This document shows positions 13,053 to 41,563 of a stretch of DNA of 44,463 nucleotides, in pieces. Both the position numbers and the translations under genes were made by a program. Position 1 is the first letter of the stretch; every line of letters begins with the position of its first letter. The stretch comes from Candidatus Dadabacteria bacterium. Lineage in GTDB: Bacteria > Desulfobacterota_D > UBA1144 > Nemesobacterales > Nemesobacteraceae. The stretch spans positions 1 to 44,463 of the forward strand of contig JAJEGO010000037.1 of NCBI GenBank assembly GCA_022819805.1, written 5' to 3'. The notes under the pieces were generated by a model, which saw only the letters and a program-made list of their open reading frames with translations, was not told where the DNA came from and did no database searches.

Positions 13053-16000
<2,948 letters not shown>

Positions 16001-16064
16001 GAGGCTTGAAAATTCTCGATACCAACACAACACACAATTTTCTCAGCGTTATATTCAGTTGCCA

Positions 16065-16222
16065 AAGATTTTTCCGATTTGATTTAAGGTTGCCTTTTAG
16101 ATTAGAATTCTTCATAAAGTTCTTGACATGTTAGAATTTGTTGTGGTAGTTTATAAGCGAGTTTTAAATGTTTTTTAACTGAAATTATAATACGTTAAAA
16201 CCCCTAACCATAATCCACATGT
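16065..16222. other. AT-rich stretch without a gene
   Basis: No coding sequence and no 5S rRNA are visible. A TTGACA at 16123-16128 has no -10 box at the right distance. The first 45 bases show weak similarity to 20010-20055, the flank of copy C, as a faded extension of the repeat. Confidence 0.5.
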
Positions 16223-16257
16223 AAAAAAGCCCAGATCCGATTTCTCAGACCTGGGCT
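16223..16257 (-). terminator. Intrinsic terminator of the RTX lipoprotein gene
   Basis: On the minus strand AGCCCAG pairs with CTGGGCT, extended by about three inner pairs, and is followed by TTTTTT (complement of 16223-16228). It lies about 95 bases after the stop codon of the RTX gene. Confidence 0.8.
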
Positions 16258-16352
16258 GCAAGAGGAGATTAAATGTCTACTAGTTAGCGATGATGTTAGT
16301 TTCCTTACTCAAGGGAAACAACTCTAGAGGCAAATGAATCTCTCCTTAGGTT

Positions 16353-17840
16353 TTATTCAAATATCAAGAAAACCGAACCCTCTCCATCTCTTCCTATGAT
16401 GGCCTGGATGGTGGTGCCCAGGTTATAAGGGGCGTCGGTTCCTAAAATAACTGTCTGGCTAACTCCGCCCGTCGTAATCGTAAATATTCCGTCCGTCTGG
16501 ATAGGGTCCGAAGCTTTCGGCGTCCCCTCGGTGTTAGGCAACTGCTTGACGACGATTTTGTCAATTACGCCTGTCTGCCCTGCGGCCGGCAACTGAAAAT
16601 CTAAAATGGTATCCGTTGCGCCAGCCCTGGGAACCCAGACAACAAAGGTATCTTTCCCGGTAACATCATTGCCATCATCGGGGGGATCTCCAAAAAGGGT
16701 GTTGTTGCCTGCCTTGCCGTCAAGCTCATTGTCCGCGTCATCTCCCGTCAGGGCGTCGTTATCGGCACCTCCATGAACATTTTCAAAACCTTTGACTCCT
16801 GGAGCAGTGGAAAGAACAAAGGTTCCAGACACAACAATGGTGTCAGTACCCATACCGCCGTCAAGCGTGTCAGTCCCTCCGCCGCCAGTAATAACGTCAT
16901 CTCCGCCCATACCGTTAATGGTGTCGTTGCGAGAACCGCCTGTAAGCGTGTTGGCGTTGTCATCGCCCACCAGTTGGTTAGGGCCAGTTGCACTGCCCGT
17001 GACATTTTCAACGTTGGAAATCACGTCCTTGATATCTCCTACCTCCATCAAGGCACCTGCCGGCCGGACTTCCGAGAAACCATTATCTCCCCCCATAAGC
17101 CCAACATGAAGAACATTACCAGCACCATCTGCTTCTCCCAGTTGACCAGCGTCGGTGCCAGGCGCGATGGCAGCGAAACTTACGGTATCTACACCGTCAC
17201 CGCCGTCAAGAACATCTATGCCTACCAGATCGCTGTCAGTAAGAGTATCGTTTCCAGCTTCGCCATAGAGCTCATCGTTTCCAGCCCCACCGTCGAGATC
17301 GTCGTTGCCTTCTCCACCATAGAGCATGTCATCGCCCCCGTTACCCCTAAGAGTATCGTTTCCAGCATCGCCCCTGAGCACGTCATCCCCCGCGTCGTTA
17401 TAATTGTCCGGTGGGGTCGCCGGGCGCGCTTCGTGACCATACAAATTGTCATCGCCCAGTCCTCCCTCGAGGGTATCGTTGCCAGCCTCTCCGTTAATGG
17501 TGTCCTTGCCCCCGTTACCGAGTAGCGTATCATCTCCATCCGCACCGCTGATGGAATCAGGATAGTTGCTTCCACAAACCATATCGGCTCCATCGGAACC
17601 CACGAACACCCTGTCTCTGAGGGTCAACTGATGGTCGCACTCCGGCATTTCCGGAGGTGCCGGACACATTGCGGGGTCGCTAACTTCAGTTGCTTCCTCG
17701 TCGGAACACACATACACCGTAGGTCTAGGCACGTTCTTTTCCACCTCTACCTCCACGGTTTCCGTATCTGTGCAAGATATGCTTAGAACCCCTGCTGCCG
17801 TGCACAGCAACAGAATCATAAACAAGTTACGTAACTTCAT
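16353..17840 (-). CDS. RTX calcium-binding repeat lipoprotein
   Basis: The 495-residue protein begins with a signal peptide whose cleavage region VLSISC (Cys23) is loosely lipobox-like, though the residue at -3 is Ser rather than Leu. From about residue 80 it carries many RTX nonapeptide units of the form GGxGxDxLx (for example GGEGNDDLD, GEAGNDTLT, GGGGTDTLD) in two blocks, about 85-220 and 290-390, which fold into a calcium-loaded parallel beta-roll in known family members. The last 100 residues contain no enzyme motif. No type I secretion genes lie nearby. AAGGAGG lies 8 bases before the ATG and a terminator follows. It is probably a surface or periplasmic calcium-binding structural or adhesion protein. 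It sits between two copies of the 23S tail, and so may be mobile cargo. Confidence 0.85.
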   Translation of the reverse strand: MKLRNLFMILLLCTAAGVLSISCTDTETVEVEVEKNVPRPTVYVCSDEEATEVSDPAMCPAPPEMPECDHQLTLRDRVFVGSDGADMVCGSNYPDSISGADGDDTLLGNGGKDTINGEAGNDTLEGGLGDDNLYGHEARPATPPDNYNDAGDDVLRGDAGNDTLRGNGGDDMLYGGEGNDDLDGGAGNDELYGEAGNDTLTDSDLVGIDVLDGGDGVDTVSFAAIAPGTDAGQLGEADGAGNVLHVGLMGGDNGFSEVRPAGALMEVGDIKDVISNVENVTGSATGPNQLVGDDNANTLTGGSRNDTINGMGGDDVITGGGGTDTLDGGMGTDTIVVSGTFVLSTAPGVKGFENVHGGADNDALTGDDADNELDGKAGNNTLFGDPPDDGNDVTGKDTFVVWVPRAGATDTILDFQLPAAGQTGVIDKIVVKQLPNTEGTPKASDPIQTDGIFTITTGGVSQTVILGTDAPYNLGTTIQAIIGRDGEGSVFLIFE

Positions 17841-18183
17841 ATTGAATCCTCCTTAAAAATTAAAAATTTGAACTCTTAAAAACCCTGTTTCACTCTGTTT
17901 CCTAATTTCAGTTAAGAGGCGGAAGCTACGAAGCAATTTGTATCTATCGTTTTTCTTGTATATCTGTGCAAAGAGAACCAGTCTTATGTCGCTTGAATGG
18001 TGGTAATACGGTATTTTTCTCCTCTGAGAAATCACTCGGGCGTTCTGTTAAACTTAAGGTTGAGGGGTTTTTGGAGTTACGCTTTTCTTGCGGGATGGTC
18101 GCCGGGATGGGCAGCGAGGCTGCGGTTTTTCCTGATGTTAAAATTAGCTTCGCAGTTGCCACCCTTTCCAGTCACGCAACGCG
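17841..18183. other. Gap between recombinase and RTX gene
   Basis: Beyond the RTX ribosome binding site (complement of about 17849-17855), nothing definite is seen. Short frames in this stretch have no start signals and no protein-like composition. The RTX gene promoter must lie here or further right, but I cannot pick it out. Confidence 0.5.
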
Positions 18184-19176
18184 TCATCCGCAACCGTAGC
18201 GAATACGAGCGACGGCGTTACTCCCCGCAAGCTGATGCCTGGAGTAGAGGGCGGGCATTTGCGGTGACTGCCAGCGGCCTGCGATCTGCATATCGACGAG
18301 AGTTGCCCCGCTGGCGGCCATACTCTGCGCCGCCCCGACGCGCAGGGAATGACCGCTTACTCCCTCTATTCCTGCCTGTGCGGCCTGAGCTTTGAGAATG
18401 CGGCGTATGGACAAAGGGGATAAAGCTGTTTCACCGACTCGGGAAGTATGAATCTTTCCGCGTGATACTCTGCGAAAAAGCGCCCCGTTATCCACTCTTC
18501 CCGCTTCCCGCCACGCGCGAACCCGCACCATCGTCGGGCGGCCAAGATAAAGAACCGCTCCCCTGCCTTCCTGATCCGTCTTTGAGCGCCTGACACTCAG
18601 CCGCCCGGAACCGTCGGTTTCTTCCGTGACATCTGAGACAAGCAGCGCTGCCGCTTCGGAAATTCTCAGCATTGCGTCGGACATGACCGAGATCAAGGCT
18701 GCGTCACGGATGCCTGAAAGCGAATCCGGATCTTCGCTCGCCTTAGCTGCCATTGTATCAGCCTGTGTCCAGCTGACGCCGCGGGCCTGGCCGCGTCCCC
18801 GGTTTGCTCCCTTGCGGCGAAATCCCCGCATTGTCGCTACCGTAAGCCTGTTAACCGGGGACTTTGTGTCTCTGAGTTTCACGGCGTAGGAAACCGCCGC
18901 TATAGCCATTTGAGCCGTGGCGGGGGCCTTGCCCTCGGCTTCGAGTGTAGCGATGTAGCGGGCAAGAGCAACATCATTGAGCTTTTCAAGCAGCAGACCG
19001 ACATTGACTTCTTCTCCAGATTCAATCCCCATAAACGCTTCAAGACGACGCAGTGCCCCGCGGTAGGTCTTAAGGGTGTTTTCTGACACGGATTCGCTTA
19101 TAAGCTCTCTGAGATTCGCTTCCTCTTCTAGCAATTCCATGGAATGTGATTTCTCAAGTGTATTTTGCTCTCCCAT
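18184..19176 (-). CDS. Cre-like tyrosine recombinase
   Basis: The 330-residue protein has an N-terminal SAM-like core-binding domain (about 25-115) and a C-terminal catalytic domain. The catalytic residues are R171 (in LRISEAA), K199 (RSKTD), H276 and R279 (GHSLRVGAAQ), W302 (AGRWQ) and the nucleophile Y311 (ALYSRH). The spacing R279-W302-Y311 (23 and 9) and the use of Trp where most family members have His match phage P1 Cre (R292, W315, Y324) rather than XerC/XerD. AGGAGG lies about 8 bases before the ATG. It would cut and rejoin DNA at a specific site through a 3'-phosphotyrosine link. Copies of the 23S tail lie on both sides (15927 and 19871) and a decayed one directly upstream (19313), which makes them candidates for past recombination sites. 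Confidence 0.9.
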   Translation of the reverse strand: MGEQNTLEKSHSMELLEEEANLRELISESVSENTLKTYRGALRRLEAFMGIESGEEVNVGLLLEKLNDVALARYIATLEAEGKAPATAQMAIAAVSYAVKLRDTKSPVNRLTVATMRGFRRKGANRGRGQARGVSWTQADTMAAKASEDPDSLSGIRDAALISVMSDAMLRISEAAALLVSDVTEETDGSGRLSVRRSKTDQEGRGAVLYLGRPTMVRVRAWREAGRVDNGALFRRVSRGKIHTSRVGETALSPLSIRRILKAQAAQAGIEGVSGHSLRVGAAQSMAASGATLVDMQIAGRWQSPQMPALYSRHQLAGSNAVARIRYGCG

Positions 19177-19312
19177 AATAAATCCTCCTGCGATTTTTTA
19201 GGGAAATGCTTAATGTTTTTTCTCAATAGGAACAACAGGTTGGGGCCAGATAATGCGTAAGCGGCAGGGAGCACAGCATGCGAAGCAAGTCTGGAAAGTA
19301 AGGTTCCGTAAG

Positions 19313-19411
19313 GATTACGAGGTTGACAGGTTCGGGACCTAAGTTTTGCGGGGGGTTAAGTTGGCGGGTGTTAATCGACCGTGAAACTTGTCTTGAGGAT
19401 TGGAGGTTCTC
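19313..19411 (+). repeat. 23S-tail repeat, copy B (diverged)
   Basis: These 99 bases align without a gap to 15919-16017 (end of the 23S and start of the spacer): 69 positions agree and 30 differ, of which 27 are transitions. Identical runs include GATTACGAGGTTGA and CGACCGTGA. Fainter 23S similarity extends left to about 19272. It is not a functional rRNA end, since no upstream 23S is attached. It lies between the recombinase start and its putative promoter. Confidence 0.8.
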
Positions 19412-19462
19412 AACGACGGTCAGCGTTTGGTCGTTCGCCTGTGAAAATCAAGGTGATTAGCC

Positions 19463-19652
19463 CTCTACAACTAGCCACTTGCCCCATCATATTGTTAAGA
19501 AATTATTCTTTTAAGTTGAAGTTATCGTAACCACCGCAGGCTGTGAAAACTGCGTAGAACCTAATATTAATTCTACCCCTCAGCTTAACTGCTTGTCAAG
19601 TAAAAATTAAGTTATTTCAGGGTGATACAGAGCATTCGGTCCTAACAATCCC
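19463..19652 (-). repeat. Dispersed intergenic repeat, copy 1
   Basis: About 190 bases are similar to 41364-41563. Shared blocks (plus strand) are AACTAGCCACTTGC, GAATTATTCTTT (one mismatch here), CGCAGGCTGTGAAA, CTTAACTG, TTGTCAAGTAAA, GAGTTATTT-type and CGGTCCTAACA-type sequence, separated by less conserved bases. Most differences are transitions. On the minus strand it carries a promoter (19570-19599) followed by a short hairpin (CGCAG/CTGCG) and reads toward the recombinase. Confidence 0.8.
19570..19599 (-). promoter_or_regulatory. Putative promoter of the recombinase gene, inside the repeat
   Basis: On the minus strand TTGACA (complement of 19594-19599) and TAGAAT (complement of 19570-19575) are 18 bases apart. 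The second repeat copy keeps the same boxes and the same spacing at 41483-41512. The leader to the recombinase ATG would be about 390 bases and include copy B of the 23S tail. Confidence 0.6.
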
Positions 19653-19657
19653 GCGCT

Positions 19658-19679
19658 GTTCCACTCGGGTGAGTGGAAC
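19658..19679. repeat. Perfect 9-bp hairpin
   Basis: GTTCCACTC (19658-19666) and GAGTGGAAC (19671-19679) are perfectly complementary around the loop GGGT. There is only a TTT after it, so a terminator role is weak; a protein-binding palindrome is also possible. It marks the outer end of dispersed repeat copy 1. Confidence 0.6.
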
Positions 19680-19698
19680 TTTCAAACCTCCCCAACAT

Positions 19699-19717
19699 CA
19701 ATTCAGCTGATGAATTG
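19699..19717. repeat. Perfect 7-bp hairpin
   Basis: CAATTCA (19699-19705) and TGAATTG (19711-19717) pair around GCTGA, 20 bases from the previous hairpin. The remaining bases up to 19870 hold no gene or other structure that I can support. Confidence 0.45.
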
Positions 19718-19870
19718 CCTGGATAAGATGGCTCTTGGAAACTACACTGAGGGTTCAAAGAGGCGATCCGGGGTTTGGAGGGCTTGTAAGCTTAAGTCTG
19801 TAACCCCATCACCTTTCTAAAAGCGTGAATAAAGCGAAAAAATAAAAAATCGAGTTGACTTAAATTCATG

Positions 19871-20009
19871 GGTTGATAGGCTCAGGGTGTAAGTCCCGTG
19901 AGGGATTAATCTGATGAGTGCTAACCGACCGTGAGGATTACCGCGGCGCTTGAAAATTCTCGATACCAATACAACACACAATTTTGCTCAGCGTTATATT
20001 CAGTTGCCA
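19871..20009 (+). repeat. 23S-tail repeat, copy C
   Basis: This is a near-exact copy of 15927-16064, the end of the 23S plus the 3' processing arm, with about 8 differences. Its left edge is sharp (the bases before 19871 do not match the 23S), while to the right the similarity fades over about 40 bases. It is not attached to any 23S body, so it is a partial duplication or an attachment-site copy. Confidence 0.88.
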
Positions 20010-20067
20010 GGGATCCTTCCCCAAGTTGAAGGCGACCTTTCATAAGCAAGCTTTCCCCGTGAGATAT

Positions 20068-28882: not shown

Positions 28883-29503
28883 ATGGACAATCCGCCGCAC
28901 AGAACGGGCAGAATGATAAAAATATATAAAATCAGCTTCCCCGATGGATCGGCTTACGTCGGGCAGACAAGACAGCCGGTTTCCGCCCGGCTCGCGCAGC
29001 ATCGGCGCTCAAGCCCGTGCAATTCAATTCTGCACCGCAGGCTTCTTATAATGAAGCCGACCATAGAAGTCCTCTCTAGCCACCGCAACCAGGAGATTGC
29101 CGACCGGGAAGAGAAAAAGTGGATCATGGGGCTTGAAAAACCGATAAACATGTATGTCGACGGGAAGCAGATCAACACAAACCCCCAAGCCCCGTCACTG
29201 CGTGACAACAGGTGGCCGAAGGAAAGAAACCGGCGGAAAAGACCCAAGTATCCCCGCAGGGCCAGCGGCTATCACGTCTGTTCCTGGTGCTGGCGGAAAC
29301 TTCCAGTGTCTGAGTTCTATTCAGACTGCTGCAGGTCGGTCGGCCTTTCAAGCCGATGCAAGAGATGTTCCGGGATCGAGAGCAGGGCCCGCCGGGAGGC
29401 GATAAAAAGGAATGGGGATACTTCCGTAGCCTATTTCCAGGCTAAACTTGCGTGTCAGGCGCTGCGGACGACGAGAACCCGGCCGGTGATCAGAGTCGTA
29501 TGA
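28883..29503 (+). CDS. GIY-YIG endonuclease-domain protein with a cysteine cluster
   Basis: The 206-residue protein begins with a GIY-YIG nuclease domain (about 12-95): KIYKIS (Y15), AYVGQT (Y25, G27), the catalytic-type arginine R36 in ARLAQH and a helix with acidic residues. After a basic linker there is a C-terminal cluster CSWCWRKLPVSEFY...C...CKRC, a pattern seen in small zinc-binding modules that often accompany HNH or phage-related nucleases. The first ATG (28883) lies 8 bases after a TATAAT (28869-28874) without a Shine-Dalgarno; the ATG at 28913 is an alternative and keeps the whole domain. It is a single gene between sucD and yicC and is probably of mobile or phage origin. Confidence 0.8.
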   Translation: MDNPPHRTGRMIKIYKISFPDGSAYVGQTRQPVSARLAQHRRSSPCNSILHRRLLIMKPTIEVLSSHRNQEIADREEKKWIMGLEKPINMYVDGKQINTNPQAPSLRDNRWPKERNRRKRPKYPRRASGYHVCSWCWRKLPVSEFYSDCCRSVGLSSRCKRCSGIESRARREAIKRNGDTSVAYFQAKLACQALRTTRTRPVIRVV

Positions 29504-29539: not shown

Positions 29540-30412
29540 TTACTCTATATTCTGAACCTGCTCGCGTATCTTTTCCAGCTCAAGTCGTATGTTTATGGTG
29601 AGGTGAGAGATCCCCGCGTCCTTGCATTTTGCCGATATGGTCCCGGCTTCCCTGTTCATTTCCTGGATCAGGAAATCAAGCTCCTTCCCCACGGGTCCCT
29701 TTTTCCTGGCGGTCTTCCTGAACTTGGAGATATGAGCCTCAAGTCTCACGATTTCTTCATCGATCTCGCTTTTTTCAGTCACTATGGCCGCGGCTTCCTG
29801 AGAAATAAGAGGATCGTTCTTATGCCTTGATGAGAAGATTTTCTCGATCTTCTCCTTTGTTTTTTTCTCGGATTTCTTTACGAATTCCTTTCGTTTCTTC
29901 TTTACGCCGTCAACCGCTTTTCTTATGATTTCCAGGCGCCCGAGTATCGCTTTCTCGAGCTTCTGCCCCTCGGCCTCCCGGCTCCTGTTGAACTTTACAA
30001 GCGCTTTTGCGACCGTTTCCCTGATCTTGGTTTCCGTATCTCTTGAGACCTCGGGTCCGACATGGCTCTCAAAGGAATTCTCCATCATGAGCAGGTGCTC
30101 GACTCCTATCTCCGTTTTAAGCCCCAGAGCGGAATTGATTCTCTTGAGGGAGCTGTGATTTTCCCGGAGCACTTTTTCTGAGAGGCGCTGCCTCTCCTTT
30201 CGGTTTGTCTGCACGGAAAGCCTAAGGCGAAGTTTTCCCCTCTGAATCGAGTTTTTCATCCTGTCTTCAATTGCGGTTTCCAATTGGAGAAGCGATTCGG
30301 GAACGCTGGCATTTACATCGAGGAACCTGTGGTTCTCCGACCGTATGTTCACCATTATCTTTCCGATCTCTGTGTTTACGGATGATTCCGCAAAGCCGGT
30401 CATACTTTTCAT
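29540..30412 (-). CDS. yicC: YicC family endoribonuclease
   Basis: The 290-residue protein starts with MKSMTGFA, the invariant N-terminus of YicC, and ends with EMNREAGTISAKCKDAG followed by a final REQVQNIE, the family C-terminal signature (DUF1732). YicC proteins are ribonucleases that in E. coli act on small RNAs such as RyhB together with PNPase. The middle third is highly charged and helical. A 9-codon remnant of the same gene start is found at 32801-32827 as part of a duplicated junction. The gene faces away from the small lipoprotein gene at 30592. Confidence 0.93.
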   Translation of the reverse strand: MKSMTGFAESSVNTEIGKIMVNIRSENHRFLDVNASVPESLLQLETAIEDRMKNSIQRGKLRLRLSVQTNRKERQRLSEKVLRENHSSLKRINSALGLKTEIGVEHLLMMENSFESHVGPEVSRDTETKIRETVAKALVKFNRSREAEGQKLEKAILGRLEIIRKAVDGVKKKRKEFVKKSEKKTKEKIEKIFSSRHKNDPLISQEAAAIVTEKSEIDEEIVRLEAHISKFRKTARKKGPVGKELDFLIQEMNREAGTISAKCKDAGISHLTINIRLELEKIREQVQNIE

Positions 30413-30591
30413 GATACGCTTTTTTCCTTCTGGTATACGTTTTTCTCAAGCAGAATACCCGCAACGGGTTCCAATTCGCAACCGCCGCCATGTGAGGAAA
30501 GAAAACCGCTTTGCATGTTCCCGGAACTTGCCTGCACCATTTTTCTCATTTAACTTCTTAGATCATTCAAAGGATCCCCAGTTCCCGCTCC

Positions 30592-31071
30592 ATGAGAAAA
30601 TCCTATCTTTTCGTTCTGCCCTTGCTGCTTCTTTCTCTCTCCTGCGCCGTTCCGGTGCAGAGTTCGGACCAAAGGAGACCGCAGCCGAAAGTTTCCGCTA
30701 CCAGCGTCGTAAAATCTTTTCTTGAGGCGCTTAAGGAGCGTGACTTTGAATCCGCTTACGACAAGGTGCATATATTCAGTTCGGACCGCGAAGGTTACGT
30801 AAGCAGGTTTGAGCTTCTTTACGAAAACTACGATATCAGAATAGTTGGCTACAGGGTCCTGGCGACCCAGCTTTTCAAGGACACCGCCATAGTGGTCGCG
30901 GAAGTGGAGGTTGACTACAGAAGGCCGGGCGAGAGCGAGCGCGCGAGAGCTAAACACACAAACCGCTACGATCTCTCAATACCCAAAAAAGAGTGGAAGA
31001 TAGTAAAGGACGAATGCATTGAGAACTGCAGTTACGGACCGGAAGGTGAGAGCGGAGACGGAGGAGTGTAG
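30592..31071 (+). CDS. Small lipoprotein, possible NTF2-like fold
   Basis: The 159-residue protein has a signal peptide (MRKSYLFVLPLLLLSLSC) ending at Cys18. The mature part contains VVKSFLEALKERDFESAYDKV and later a strand-rich stretch, the pattern of small NTF2-like domains of the DUF4878 kind; that assignment is a guess. The glycine-rich, acidic C-terminus may be disordered. A shortened second copy (same signal peptide and same tail, middle missing) stands at 33025-33129 directly before dapB. This and the following dapB remnant indicate that this gene originally lay between yicC and dapB. Confidence 0.75.
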   Translation: MRKSYLFVLPLLLLSLSCAVPVQSSDQRRPQPKVSATSVVKSFLEALKERDFESAYDKVHIFSSDREGYVSRFELLYENYDIRIVGYRVLATQLFKDTAIVVAEVEVDYRRPGESERARAKHTNRYDLSIPKKEWKIVKDECIENCSYGPEGESGDGGV

Positions 31072-31140
31072 GGGATAAAAGTCGCGGTCGTCGCGGACCC
31101 CGAGTCCAGAGTCAGGGATGTGGCGGGAGCTCTGTAGAAA
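31072..31140 (+). pseudogene. Remnant of the dapB 5' end
   Basis: Right after the lipoprotein stop the sequence reads GGG ATA AAA GTC GCG GTC, which lines up codon by codon with the true dapB start GTG ATA AAG ATT GCG GTA at 33126. The start codon is destroyed (GTG to GGG). The frame reads IKVAVVADPESRVRDVAGAL and then stops at TAG (31136-31138), against IKIAVAGVCGRMG in DapB. It fixes the right edge of the duplicated segment. Confidence 0.65.
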
Positions 31141-31202
31141 GCATTGCAATCCTGAAGATGTATTGTTACCATGTTTCGGCGATGTTTGGCTGCTCCTCAG
31201 TG

Positions 31203-32783
31203 ATGCGCGGGATCAAGGGTATTTTCTTGGTGTTGCTTATCGTGACCGCTGCCGGTTGCGGCGGGAGCGATGGTGGTGAGAACAACGAGGACACGCGTGA
31301 CCGGTTCGCCGAGTTTTGGGATGAACTGGAGCGTCTGGATCCCCGGCCGGACTGGTGGAGAGATTCCGAACCGTATACCTGCCGTCAGGAGGAGAACCCT
31401 GACTCCCCGTGGCCTGAAGCGGGTCTTGAGGATCTTGGCGGGTCCGACCCTCTCTCCCTGATCCGCTGGTTCGGTAACGGAAGTTATCTGCGGTACGGCA
31501 ATCTGAGATTCTTCGGGTGTACGGAACTTGAAAAGTACCCGGGCGAGTACCATGTTGCGGATACGCCCATCGACCCGACATATTACTCGCTGGGCGATCT
31601 GGACATATATGTGGACATAGCTCGCATACCGCCTCGTCCGGCTCACGTGCCGGCAGATGAGTGGTTGTGGTACGAAGACGACGGGGGACGAATCGATTTC
31701 ATCAGCATGGAGGAAGCCGTCTCGCTTCTCAATCAGCACGTCGCCCCGTATTACAGGAGGATATCGGGGGACAGGTTCCGGATCACTTTTCACGCGGGCA
31801 ATGAATTTGAAGTCGGCGGCGACGGCCAGCCGGAGGACGCGGAGAGCCGGCAGATGGCGGAGGTCGGAATAACCTGCGGGGAGGGCTGTCGCAAGTACGG
31901 ACCCCCAAGCGGGCTCAACCGGATTCTGCTCAACGATGTCGCTTCTTACAGCGGAGGCGAGGCATCCAGTGGATGGGCCGGATTCGGCCTCGTGAGTTTG
32001 CGCGAAGGGCTCATGGGAATTATTGTCCACGAGATAGGCCATGGGTGGATGGAATGGCCGCATTCTTTTGCGGAAGTAGTCTTGGAACTTCCCGGCCAAC
32101 CGACTTTGCCTCCCAATGAATACAGCAATCCTTACGATGTAATGTCGAGTTTTGCCTTCATCGATCCGGTGAGGGGCTGGGACAGCGATATGCCGTCCAC
32201 GCTGGCAATCAACCGTTACTCGGCCGGCTGGATCAGTCCAAGCGATGTCGCTTTGCACACAAAAGACGAAGCCACGTATACATTGAGCAAACCGTTTGGT
32301 AGCGGCTATCAGTTCCTCGTCATACATTCGGGCCGCCGCTACGCCTTCACGACGCTTGAGGTTCTCGAGGAGCGGTCCTCCAGATACAAGGTAACCGAGG
32401 CAAACGTTTACGACCCGTCGGCCCCGGGCGGAAAGCGTCCCCGAAGGTACGAGGGGGTCCTGGTAAGCCGTTACGATCAGAGCGCCGGCACCGGTGGGTT
32501 CGTCCGGTTTGGTCCGGCTCTCTACAATACGGACAATCCGAACTACAGGTTTGAGGTTGCCGCCGGCGCGGATGATTACTCTCTCATACCCGACGGCGGG
32601 ACGCGGCAGATCGGCGGGGGAGTCAGCGTTTCGGTGAAGAAAAACCCGGATGGCAGCTATGAAGTGACCGTAAGCGGCGGGAGAACGGCGGAGTTTAAAA
32701 AATGGTGTGCCCCCATTCTGTTGTCGCTTGGGGACGGAAAGATAGAATACGACACCGGCTGTTCCCTGGAACCGGAGTTCTAG
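31203..32783 (+). CDS. Secreted zinc metallopeptidase-like lipoprotein (M6/M11-like)
   Basis: The 526-residue protein starts with a signal peptide and lipobox AAGC (Cys19). The zinc motif HEIGH is at residues 276-280 (VHEIGHGWMEW), with another histidine at 287. Downstream, NPYDVMSS resembles the Met-turn region of M6 (immune inhibitor A) and M11 zincins, and NRYSAGWI the following conserved block. The third zinc ligand cannot be fixed by eye. The frame is open from 31158, but the ATG at 31203 directly precedes the signal peptide and is preferred. The region beyond 390 is strand-rich and of unknown role. The gene stands between the two halves of a broken duplication of the yicC-lipoprotein-dapB junction, and was probably inserted there. 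Confidence 0.8.
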   Translation: MRGIKGIFLVLLIVTAAGCGGSDGGENNEDTRDRFAEFWDELERLDPRPDWWRDSEPYTCRQEENPDSPWPEAGLEDLGGSDPLSLIRWFGNGSYLRYGNLRFFGCTELEKYPGEYHVADTPIDPTYYSLGDLDIYVDIARIPPRPAHVPADEWLWYEDDGGRIDFISMEEAVSLLNQHVAPYYRRISGDRFRITFHAGNEFEVGGDGQPEDAESRQMAEVGITCGEGCRKYGPPSGLNRILLNDVASYSGGEASSGWAGFGLVSLREGLMGIIVHEIGHGWMEWPHSFAEVVLELPGQPTLPPNEYSNPYDVMSSFAFIDPVRGWDSDMPSTLAINRYSAGWISPSDVALHTKDEATYTLSKPFGSGYQFLVIHSGRRYAFTTLEVLEERSSRYKVTEANVYDPSAPGGKRPRRYEGVLVSRYDQSAGTGGFVRFGPALYNTDNPNYRFEVAAGADDYSLIPDGGTRQIGGGVSVSVKKNPDGSYEVTVSGGRTAEFKKWCAPILLSLGDGKIEYDTGCSLEPEF

Positions 32784-32800
32784 GCCTCAACGGGATTTCC

Positions 32801-32827
32801 ATCCGCGAAACCCGTCATGCTTTTCAT
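32801..32827 (-). pseudogene. Remnant of the yicC 5' end
   Basis: On the minus strand this reads MKSMTGFAD, matching the invariant start of YicC (MKSMTGFAE at 30412 downward), then stops after a few more codons. The bases to the right, through 33024, align with the spacer between yicC and the lipoprotein gene (30413-30591), including GGAACTTGCCTG and TTTAACTTCTTA. Confidence 0.7.
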
Positions 32828-33024
32828 GCTGCTGTTCTTTCCGTACGGGCGCGCGTTTTCCTCTGCCTGACGGGCGAAACACCCGAAACGGCGCCGATTG
32901 ACACGGCTTCTGACCGGATGCGGGCTGACGTAAAACCCGTCCTGTCCCTTTCCGGGAACTTGCCTGTATCATCATTCTCGTTTAACTTCTTATCCTGTTC
33001 GGAGGATTTTCCGTTTCCGTGTCC

Positions 33025-33129
33025 ATGAGAAAAGCTTATCTTTTCGTCCTGCCGCCGCTTTTTTTCACCCCCTGCGCCGTCCTGGCGTGCGGTTCCTGCG
33101 AAGGCGGAGACGGAGGAGGTCAGGAGTGA
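33025..33129 (+). pseudogene. Internally deleted copy of the small lipoprotein (34 codons)
   Basis: The frame reads MRKAYLFVLPPLFFTPC at the start and GGDGGGQE at the end. It matches the N-terminus and the C-terminal tail of the lipoprotein at 30592 (MRKSYLFVLPLLLLSLSC and SGDGGV) with about 125 codons missing between. It ends TGA at 33127-33129, overlapping the dapB GTG as GTGA. It may be translated as a short signal-peptide-like leader coupled to dapB, but its sequence is that of a decayed gene. Confidence 0.7.
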
Positions 33130-33926
33130 TAAAGATTGCGGTAGCAGGTGTATGCGGGCGCATGGGGATGAGCGTGGCTTCGCTTGCGGGCGCTGACGGG
33201 GATATTGAAATCGTGGGGGCGACGGAGGCGCCGGGGCACGTTTCGGTCGGCTTCGGTCTCGAGGATCTTATCGCGGGTGCGGGGCCGGGAGTGAGCGTGA
33301 GTGGCAGCATTGAGGAGGCTGCCGGGGACGCGGACGTGATAATTGACTTCACCGTTCCCGAGGCGACCCTTGCCCACGCCGAATATTCGGTCCGGAACGG
33401 AAAATCGATGGTCATAGGAACGACGGGCTTTACGCAGGAGCAGAGAGAAGAACTCCTTGGGCTCCTTGGGCGGATACCGTGCGTTCTCGCTCCCAATATG
33501 AGCGTCGGCGTCAATATTCTTTTCGAGATATCAAGGCAGGTGGCGTTTCATCTGGGAGACAGCTACGACGCCGAGATCTTCGAGACCCATCACAGGGGGA
33601 AAATCGATTCTCCGAGCGGAACGGCAATTGCGCTTGCGGAAGCTGTCGCGTCGGGACTCGGCTCGCAACTCGAGGATGTGGCGAGATACGAAAGACACGG
33701 GCGTACAGGGGCGAGAGAGAAGGGGGAGATAGGCATTCAGACGCTTCGCGGAGGAGACGTGGTGGGAGATCACACCGTCATGTTCCTCGGCGACGGGGAG
33801 AGAGTGGAGCTTACCCACAAGGCGACTACCAGGGAGAATTTCTCTGCGGGCGCGCTTCGCGCGGCGAAATGGATTCCGGGGAAACCCCCGGGAGCCTACG
33901 CGATGCGGGACGTGCTCGGATTCTGA
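33126..33926 (+). CDS. dapB: 4-hydroxy-tetrahydrodipicolinate reductase
   Basis: DapB reduces the product of DapA with NAD(P)H in diaminopimelate/lysine synthesis. Motifs are the nucleotide fold IKIAVAGVCGRMG, the loop IDFTVPEATLAHA, IGTTGFT, the active-site block EIFETHHRGKIDSPSGTA and the C-terminal block GDHTVMFLGDGERVELTHKA. The frame is open upstream from 33087 as an arginine-rich stretch, but the GTG at 33126 gives the family N-terminus and 266 residues, and GGAGGAGGT ends 5 bases before it. It is the first full gene of a rightward group dapB-tgt-yajC-secD-secF with short gaps. Confidence 0.95.
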   Translation: MIKIAVAGVCGRMGMSVASLAGADGDIEIVGATEAPGHVSVGFGLEDLIAGAGPGVSVSGSIEEAAGDADVIIDFTVPEATLAHAEYSVRNGKSMVIGTTGFTQEQREELLGLLGRIPCVLAPNMSVGVNILFEISRQVAFHLGDSYDAEIFETHHRGKIDSPSGTAIALAEAVASGLGSQLEDVARYERHGRTGAREKGEIGIQTLRGGDVVGDHTVMFLGDGERVELTHKATTRENFSAGALRAAKWIPGKPPGAYAMRDVLGF

Positions 33927-41344: not shown

Positions 41345-41363
41345 TTCTTATCAAAGGTAATTA

Positions 41364-41563
41364 CCCACTATAACTAGCCACTTGCTCCGCCATATTATTG
41401 GGGAATTATTCTTTCAGGTTGACATATTACCGGCGTCAACCGAACATCGCAGGCTGTGAAAGCTCCATACAGCCTAGCAGGGATTTTATTCTCCTGCTTA
41501 ACTGTTTGTCAAGTAAAGAGTGAGTTATTTTGGGTGATACGGAGCGTTTGGTCCTAACAGACC
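41364..41563 (-). repeat. Dispersed intergenic repeat, copy 2
   Basis: This is the second copy of the repeat at 19463-19652, in the same orientation. Conserved blocks are listed there. On the minus strand the sequence carries promoter boxes, a 7-bp hairpin (AGGCTGT/ACAGCCT) just after the predicted start, and a conserved segment with the core CAAGTGGCTAGTT, then reads into the decarboxylase gene about 20 bases further on. The hairpin is at the same place as in copy 1 but uses different bases. Confidence 0.8.
41483..41512 (-). promoter_or_regulatory. Putative promoter of the decarboxylase gene, inside the repeat
   Basis: On the minus strand TTGACA (complement of 41507-41512) and TAAAAT (complement of 41483-41488) are 18 bases apart, as in repeat copy 1. 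The leader to the ATG at 41344 would be about 130 bases. Confidence 0.6.

Follow-up and report, generated by a model that had tools for sequence, protein, structure and literature searches.

In the genome of a Candidatus Dadabacteria bacterium (G000; a 1.57-Mb assembly in 71 contigs), the junction of yicC, a small lipoprotein gene and dapB is present twice, as direct repeats with a peptidase-like gene between them, and the two copies have decayed in opposite directions: copy 1 has lost dapB, and copy 2 has lost yicC and the body of the lipoprotein gene. Doubling and opposite decay had both been proposed in a preliminary description of this DNA, and both are borne out here. The repeats occupy positions 30385-31150 and 32799-33150 of the window, by which we mean the whole 44,463-nt stretch that was analysed (contig JAJEGO010000037.1). 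We put at about 0.6 the probability that the locus arose by an insertion-duplication of the single-crossover type that brought in the peptidase gene, followed by one-sided decay and then by horizontal exchange. The processes concerned are known, and the locus is a well-preserved and well-resolved example of ordinary genome evolution, not a new kind of element. It provides a stepwise, roughly dated record of an accessory gene being added between conserved genes with none of them broken, the duplicate being kept until each side had lost the parts available from the other, and the half-eroded result remaining transferable.

The duplicated junction and its cargo

The genes in this part of the window are sucD (minus strand), a 206-aa GIY-YIG-like open reading frame (ORF) (plus), yicC (minus), the lipoprotein gene (plus), a dapB stub and the peptidase-like gene (plus), followed by a yicC stub (minus), a short lipoprotein remnant (plus), dapB (plus), tgt (plus), a yajC-like ORF (plus) and secD (plus). 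The names sucD, yajC, tgt and secD are our reading from sequence and gene order. The features of the duplicated region are as follows.

29540-30412, minus strand: intact native yicC of copy 1 (Pfam YicC-like_N, 3.5e-31; YicC-like_C, 2e-34)
30413-30591: native divergent spacer of copy 1 between yicC and the lipoprotein gene (80-86% identity to most congeners)
30592-31071, plus strand: intact small conserved lipoprotein gene of copy 1 (present in 39 of 41 genomes searched within the order)
31072-31146, plus strand: dapB pseudogene stub with a GGG start, in which about 7 N-terminal codons run directly into what is left of codons ~172-186
31158-32783, plus strand: peptidase-like gene of secreted lipoprotein type with a HEIGH motif, at the duplication junction (start probably near 31203)
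32799-32827, minus strand: yicC pseudogene stub of copy 2, MKSMTGFAD (its G007 counterpart keeps ~46 codons)
32828-33024: spacer of copy 2 (64-75% identity to copy 1; ~95% to copy 2 of G007)
33025-33129, plus strand: lipoprotein remnant with its middle deleted, an intact ORF of 34 codons whose stop overlaps the dapB GTG (same ORF in G007)
33126-33926, plus strand: intact dapB of copy 2 (NCBIfam dapB, 1.6e-80; Pfam DapB_N and DapB_C)

The intact yicC lies on the minus strand and is thus divergent from the lipoprotein gene; it is 81-92% identical to its congeners at the amino acid level. The lipoprotein itself matched no family in a Pfam search. The GIY-YIG-like ORF (28883-29503) sits in the slot between sucD and yicC, has a sub-threshold match (E = 0.0048) and is present in most, though not all, congeners.

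Ungapped repeats link 30387-30655 to 32802-33085, with a near-constant spacing of ~2.42 kb (blocks of 70 nt at 74%, 41 nt at 78%, 39 nt at 85% and 32 nt at 72%). Gapped local alignment of the two segments, the check that the preliminary description had proposed, gave a score of 201 against a maximum of 45.5 over 200 shuffles. The spacers align as described, and at 64-75% identity they mark the duplication as old rather than recent. The target of the insert was one contiguous segment, which now forms direct repeats on both sides of the cargo, with the outer genes intact and the inner copies truncated (yicC...dapB' / yicC'...dapB). All described parts of copy 2 were found, namely the MKSMTGFAD stub, the lipoprotein gene lacking its middle and the intact dapB. 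The dapB stub of copy 1 does begin with GGG, as had been noted, but it is a fusion to codons ~172-186, recognizable through G007, rather than a plain N-terminal stub. Where copy 1 has GGG ATA AAA at the expected dapB start, the sister genome G003 reads GGTGATAAAAG, and the GTG start looks to have been lost through a one-base deletion. The proposed repeat length of ~700 bases has to be replaced: the alignable copy in the window is ~350-430 bp, and the unit in G007 is at least ~1.35 kb (141 nt of yicC, ~190 of spacer, ~475 of lipoprotein gene and 555 of dapB), spanning at least 46 yicC codons, the spacer, the lipoprotein gene and dapB up to codon ~185.

The product of the peptidase-like gene starts with a signal peptide and a lipobox-like motif. 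Its match to an NCBIfam M6 domain (E = 0.002; 18.1 bits) is below the curated cut-off of 110.8, and our guess from sequence is an M6-like putative peptidase. The AlphaFold model (pLDDT 28) was unusable. The gene was found only in G000, in G007 (a Ca. Dadabacteria metagenome-assembled genome; 84% amino acid identity) and, at another site, in G005 (60-62%), with just one locus per genome. In G005 it lies directly beyond the 3' end of yicC, in the order pep(+), yicC(-), lipo(+), dapB(+). A dispersed repeat of ~210 nt occurs upstream of this G005 homologue, in the window at 19430-19640 and 41354-41559, and at four places in contig C1 of G007.

The peptidase is absent at this site from 12 of the 13 congeners. 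The junction can be read fully in 11 of those 12 (the G009 contig stops before yicC), and in all 11 yicC, the lipoprotein gene and dapB follow in order as a single copy without the peptidase; in G002 a HipA-like gene separates yicC from the lipoprotein gene. More distant families have the same order, and on that comparison yicC-lipoprotein-dapB is the ancestral arrangement there. The comparison with sister genomes thus came out as the preliminary description had anticipated, and no relative carrying the peptidase here without stubs was encountered: G007, the only other congener with the peptidase at this site, has both junction copies and both stubs, and a database scan for further carriers returned G007 alone (as CATOTB010000002.1). 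Its remnants are longer: downstream of the peptidase yicC is recognizable as far as about codon 46, and upstream of it dapB extends to nt ~555 (nt 273-400 and 449-555).

Separately, a MITE-like element of ~254-285 bp with inverted ends GGCAATTACCC (L028, reverse strand, 1303-1587, and G007 C5:48828-49081) is inserted just before the G007 peptidase, and a copy of it at 87% falls on an indel relative to G006. The sucD-yicC-lipoprotein-dapB region also resembles an insertion hot spot in congeners, with the HipA-like gene of G002 (L025, 3342-4613), an ABC substrate-binding-like protein gene in G001 (L031, 2560-3822) and the peptidase homologue of G005 (L030, 2215-3879). These three inserts have no flanking duplications, and a plain insertion hot spot was set aside as an account of the present locus because other inserts there lack duplication.

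Position and conservation suggest that yicC and the lipoprotein gene depend on the native spacer of copy 1 and dapB on copy 2, whose spacer (32828-33024) is the presumed promoter and ribosome-binding region upstream of dapB. A promoter consensus scan found nothing above chance, and predicted RNA structure in the dapB leader was no more stable than shuffles (z = -0.17). The in-frame remnant of 34 codons, MRKAYLFVLPPLFFTPCAVLACGSCEGGDGGGQE, and the dapB GTG overlap in the bases GTGA, the same overlap as at the lipoprotein/dapB junction of G006. The locus also shows that a 34-codon piece of a lipoprotein gene can persist as an ORF that overlaps the dapB start.

Neutral decay and probable horizontal sharing

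The redundant copies show spread-out substitutions, frameshifts and deletions, as in duplicate pseudogenes. Between stub and live gene in G007, 52 of 245 sites at codon positions 1 and 2 differ (21%), against 39 of 124 at position 3 (31%). For live orthologues of G007 and G005, a species pair of similar depth that served as reference, the corresponding counts are 16 of 281 (6%) and 44 of 140 (31%). The position-3 distance of the stubs (0.41, Jukes-Cantor) compares with 0.44 expected under a simple model in which the copies are identical at the start and one drifts freely. This agreement, together with the near-flat codon-position spectrum, implies that the stubs have been functionless from about the time of the duplication. 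By this measure the duplication dates to roughly the time when G007 diverged from G005 or G000; the counts behind this age are small, and its error is no less than 15-20%. A foreign, already diverged copy 2 (63-70% identical to everything) was considered and dropped as the main reading, as neutral decay accounts for the divergence of the stubs; the codon-position comparison gave no sign of divergence at entry.

The cassette is less diverged between G000 and G007 than its surroundings. Identity at four-fold sites is 0.889 for the peptidase gene versus 0.747 for dapB, tgt and secD (P = 6e-6), and copy 2 differs at 17 of 323 positions (5.3%) versus 23 of 179 in the copy 1 spacer (12.8%; P = 0.003). 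Where the lipoprotein gene meets dapB, the two copies in G000 have different sequence types, that of G003 in copy 1 and that of G006/G007 in copy 2. With the cassette less diverged than core genes and the junction types mixed, the part-decayed cassette appears to have passed horizontally between species. In the core tree G006, which has no insert, is a close sister of G007. Mismatches between their dapB genes fall from 45 of 200 to 31 of 595 at a sharp break near nt 210 (P = 3e-11), likely the edge of a recombination or crossover. Transfer would have run from the G006/G007 clade to the G000 lineage. By their neutral age the stubs predate the split of G006 from G007, which means that the cassette was either lost in G006 or acquired by G007 from elsewhere, and the long stem and unsupported tree position of copy 2 make an unsampled donor lineage possible.

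Empty sites in the sisters, both stubs in G007 and the flat codon-position spectrum support the earlier interpretation in outline, with its details refined. A unit of at least 1.35 kb, an event whose age is about that of the species and the later sharing of the cassette were beyond the reach of a first reading of the window.

Origin of the duplication

The course of events that we favour would begin with an accessory peptidase gene entering the yicC/lipoprotein/dapB locus and, in the same event, a tandem duplication of that locus that placed the peptidase at the junction. The likeliest form of this event would be a Campbell-type single crossover by circularized DNA of a relative in which the peptidase lay beside yicC-lipoprotein-dapB; interchromatid merodiploid integration would be an equivalent alternative. 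Point mutations and deletions would then have eroded the redundant halves, which in copy 1 meant dapB and in copy 2 meant yicC together with the body of the lipoprotein gene, leaving copy 2 as the upstream region of dapB with a 34-codon leader ORF overlapping its start. Homologous recombination in the flanks would later have swapped the decayed cassette between the G006/G007 clade and the G000 lineage. The duplicated piece contains the divergent spacer and the whole lipoprotein gene, and for that reason no essential gene was broken.

The order yicC-lipo-dapB'-pep-yicC'-lipo'-dapB is the exact product of a single crossover with a circle carrying pep and the internal segment. A tandem duplication that has pep at its joint gives the same order, and since the first junction left no molecular trace, circle, tandem duplication and merodiploid are indistinguishable. 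A fragment with the G005 layout, its ends joined, would yield the order seen; this is suggestive only, the G005 homologue being 60-62% identical and its support for the donor order correspondingly weak. Linear DNA that circularizes and integrates by a single crossover has been documented in E. coli (PMC3240628). As in a Campbell-type insertion-duplication, the cargo lies within direct target repeats, with inner gene parts broken and outer genes intact; unlike it, the present case is natural, ancient and decayed, and no circle is seen. In S. pneumoniae, transformation gives rise to tandem merodiploids when a donor fragment pairs with two chromatids (PMC3784515). The tandem duplication is common to both, whereas the pneumococcal one is 107 kb and unstable and the present one ~1.35 kb and fixed by decay.

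Alternatively, the native segment could have been duplicated in tandem first, the peptidase being inserted later by unrelated illegitimate recombination, with vertical descent thereafter. Decay of the stubs fits two initially identical copies, and plain insertions without flanking duplication are common both at this locus (G002, G001, G005) and genome-wide. Two independent events would, however, have to coincide at one point, in the genomes compared the duplication never occurs apart from the peptidase, and the low divergence of the cassette speaks against purely vertical descent in G000 and G007; we regard this order of events as unlikely, though worth keeping in view.

We find it improbable that a donor pep-yicC-lipo-dapB fragment entered by homology-facilitated illegitimate recombination, homologous at dapB and illegitimate at the other end, as has been proposed for T6SS immunity-gene arrays in V. 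cholerae (PMC5361080). That process would set copy 2 beside the peptidase as in the G005 order, and the arrays share with our locus a homology-anchored incoming module beside remnants of the old locus. They contain displaced downstream genes, however, whereas here the junction is doubled on both sides. In its simple form the process does not duplicate the recipient flank, yet dapB sequence lies on both sides of the insert, and the stub before the peptidase needs an extra recipient copy. Nor does copy 2 show divergence predating entry. Shorter displaced gene ends around accessory genes do exist, such as the 102-bp 3' end in G007 C6 described below, and this process explains them better than it does the present locus.

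A dedicated mobile element, borne by an integrase or transposase and making a long target duplication, is barely credible. Its products resemble the locus in having direct repeats around cargo, and an integrase-linked duplication of the 23S rRNA 3' end occurs elsewhere in the window. Against it, no recombinase or terminal repeats were seen between the copies, the duplicated unit is at least 1.35 kb with boundaries inside two genes, and there is a single peptidase locus per genome; a short target duplication, terminal inverted repeats and a transposase, as in transposons, are all lacking at the locus. An assembly artefact, conceivable in a 71-contig metagenome-assembled genome, deserves virtually no weight given the same structure in the separate G007 assembly, with species-level differences and an additional insertion.

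Recurrence and a second repeat in the window

Indels were surveyed in a comparison of 760 kb of G006 against the whole of G007 except 846 bp of contig C3. Among 38 clean indels of 250-5300 bp, seven had some duplication of or into the flank: four direct insertion-site duplications of ~32-102 bp, the present locus, and two longer repeats that lie inside or reach into the insert and resemble other repeat types. The present locus is the longest target duplication in this sample; with the other site duplications at ~32-102 bp, the earlier remark that the repeats exceed transposon target duplications stands. At G007 C6:102338-103653, a 102-bp gene 3' end (which looks like pgpA) stands on both sides of an inserted lipoprotein gene, the duplicates being 84% identical, and G006 has a single copy. 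Gene gain with short, diverged target repeats thus does occur, but the long duplicated junction is unusual in the G007/G006 comparison. It is very doubtful that the genus routinely gains accessory genes through recombination that duplicates a neighbouring gene end or junction, as a recombinase-free, homology-based cassette system. If it did, the direct repeats would permit scarless loss of the cargo and its re-exchange between species.

Elsewhere in the window (15905-20020), the 23S rRNA 3' end (15927-16075) is repeated at 19871-20020 (92%) and, in degenerate form, at 19299-19384 (73%). The repeats enclose an RTX-repeat lipoprotein gene (16353-17840, minus strand) and a tyrosine recombinase gene (18184-19176, minus strand; Pfam Phage_integrase, 2.4e-11). 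This is possibly an element that integrates at the 23S rRNA 3' end; a literature search on such an element found nothing. In G002, G010 and G013, homologues of the recombinase share a contig with a 23S 3' end and lie near it; a degenerate, displaced 23S end is present in G002 as well.
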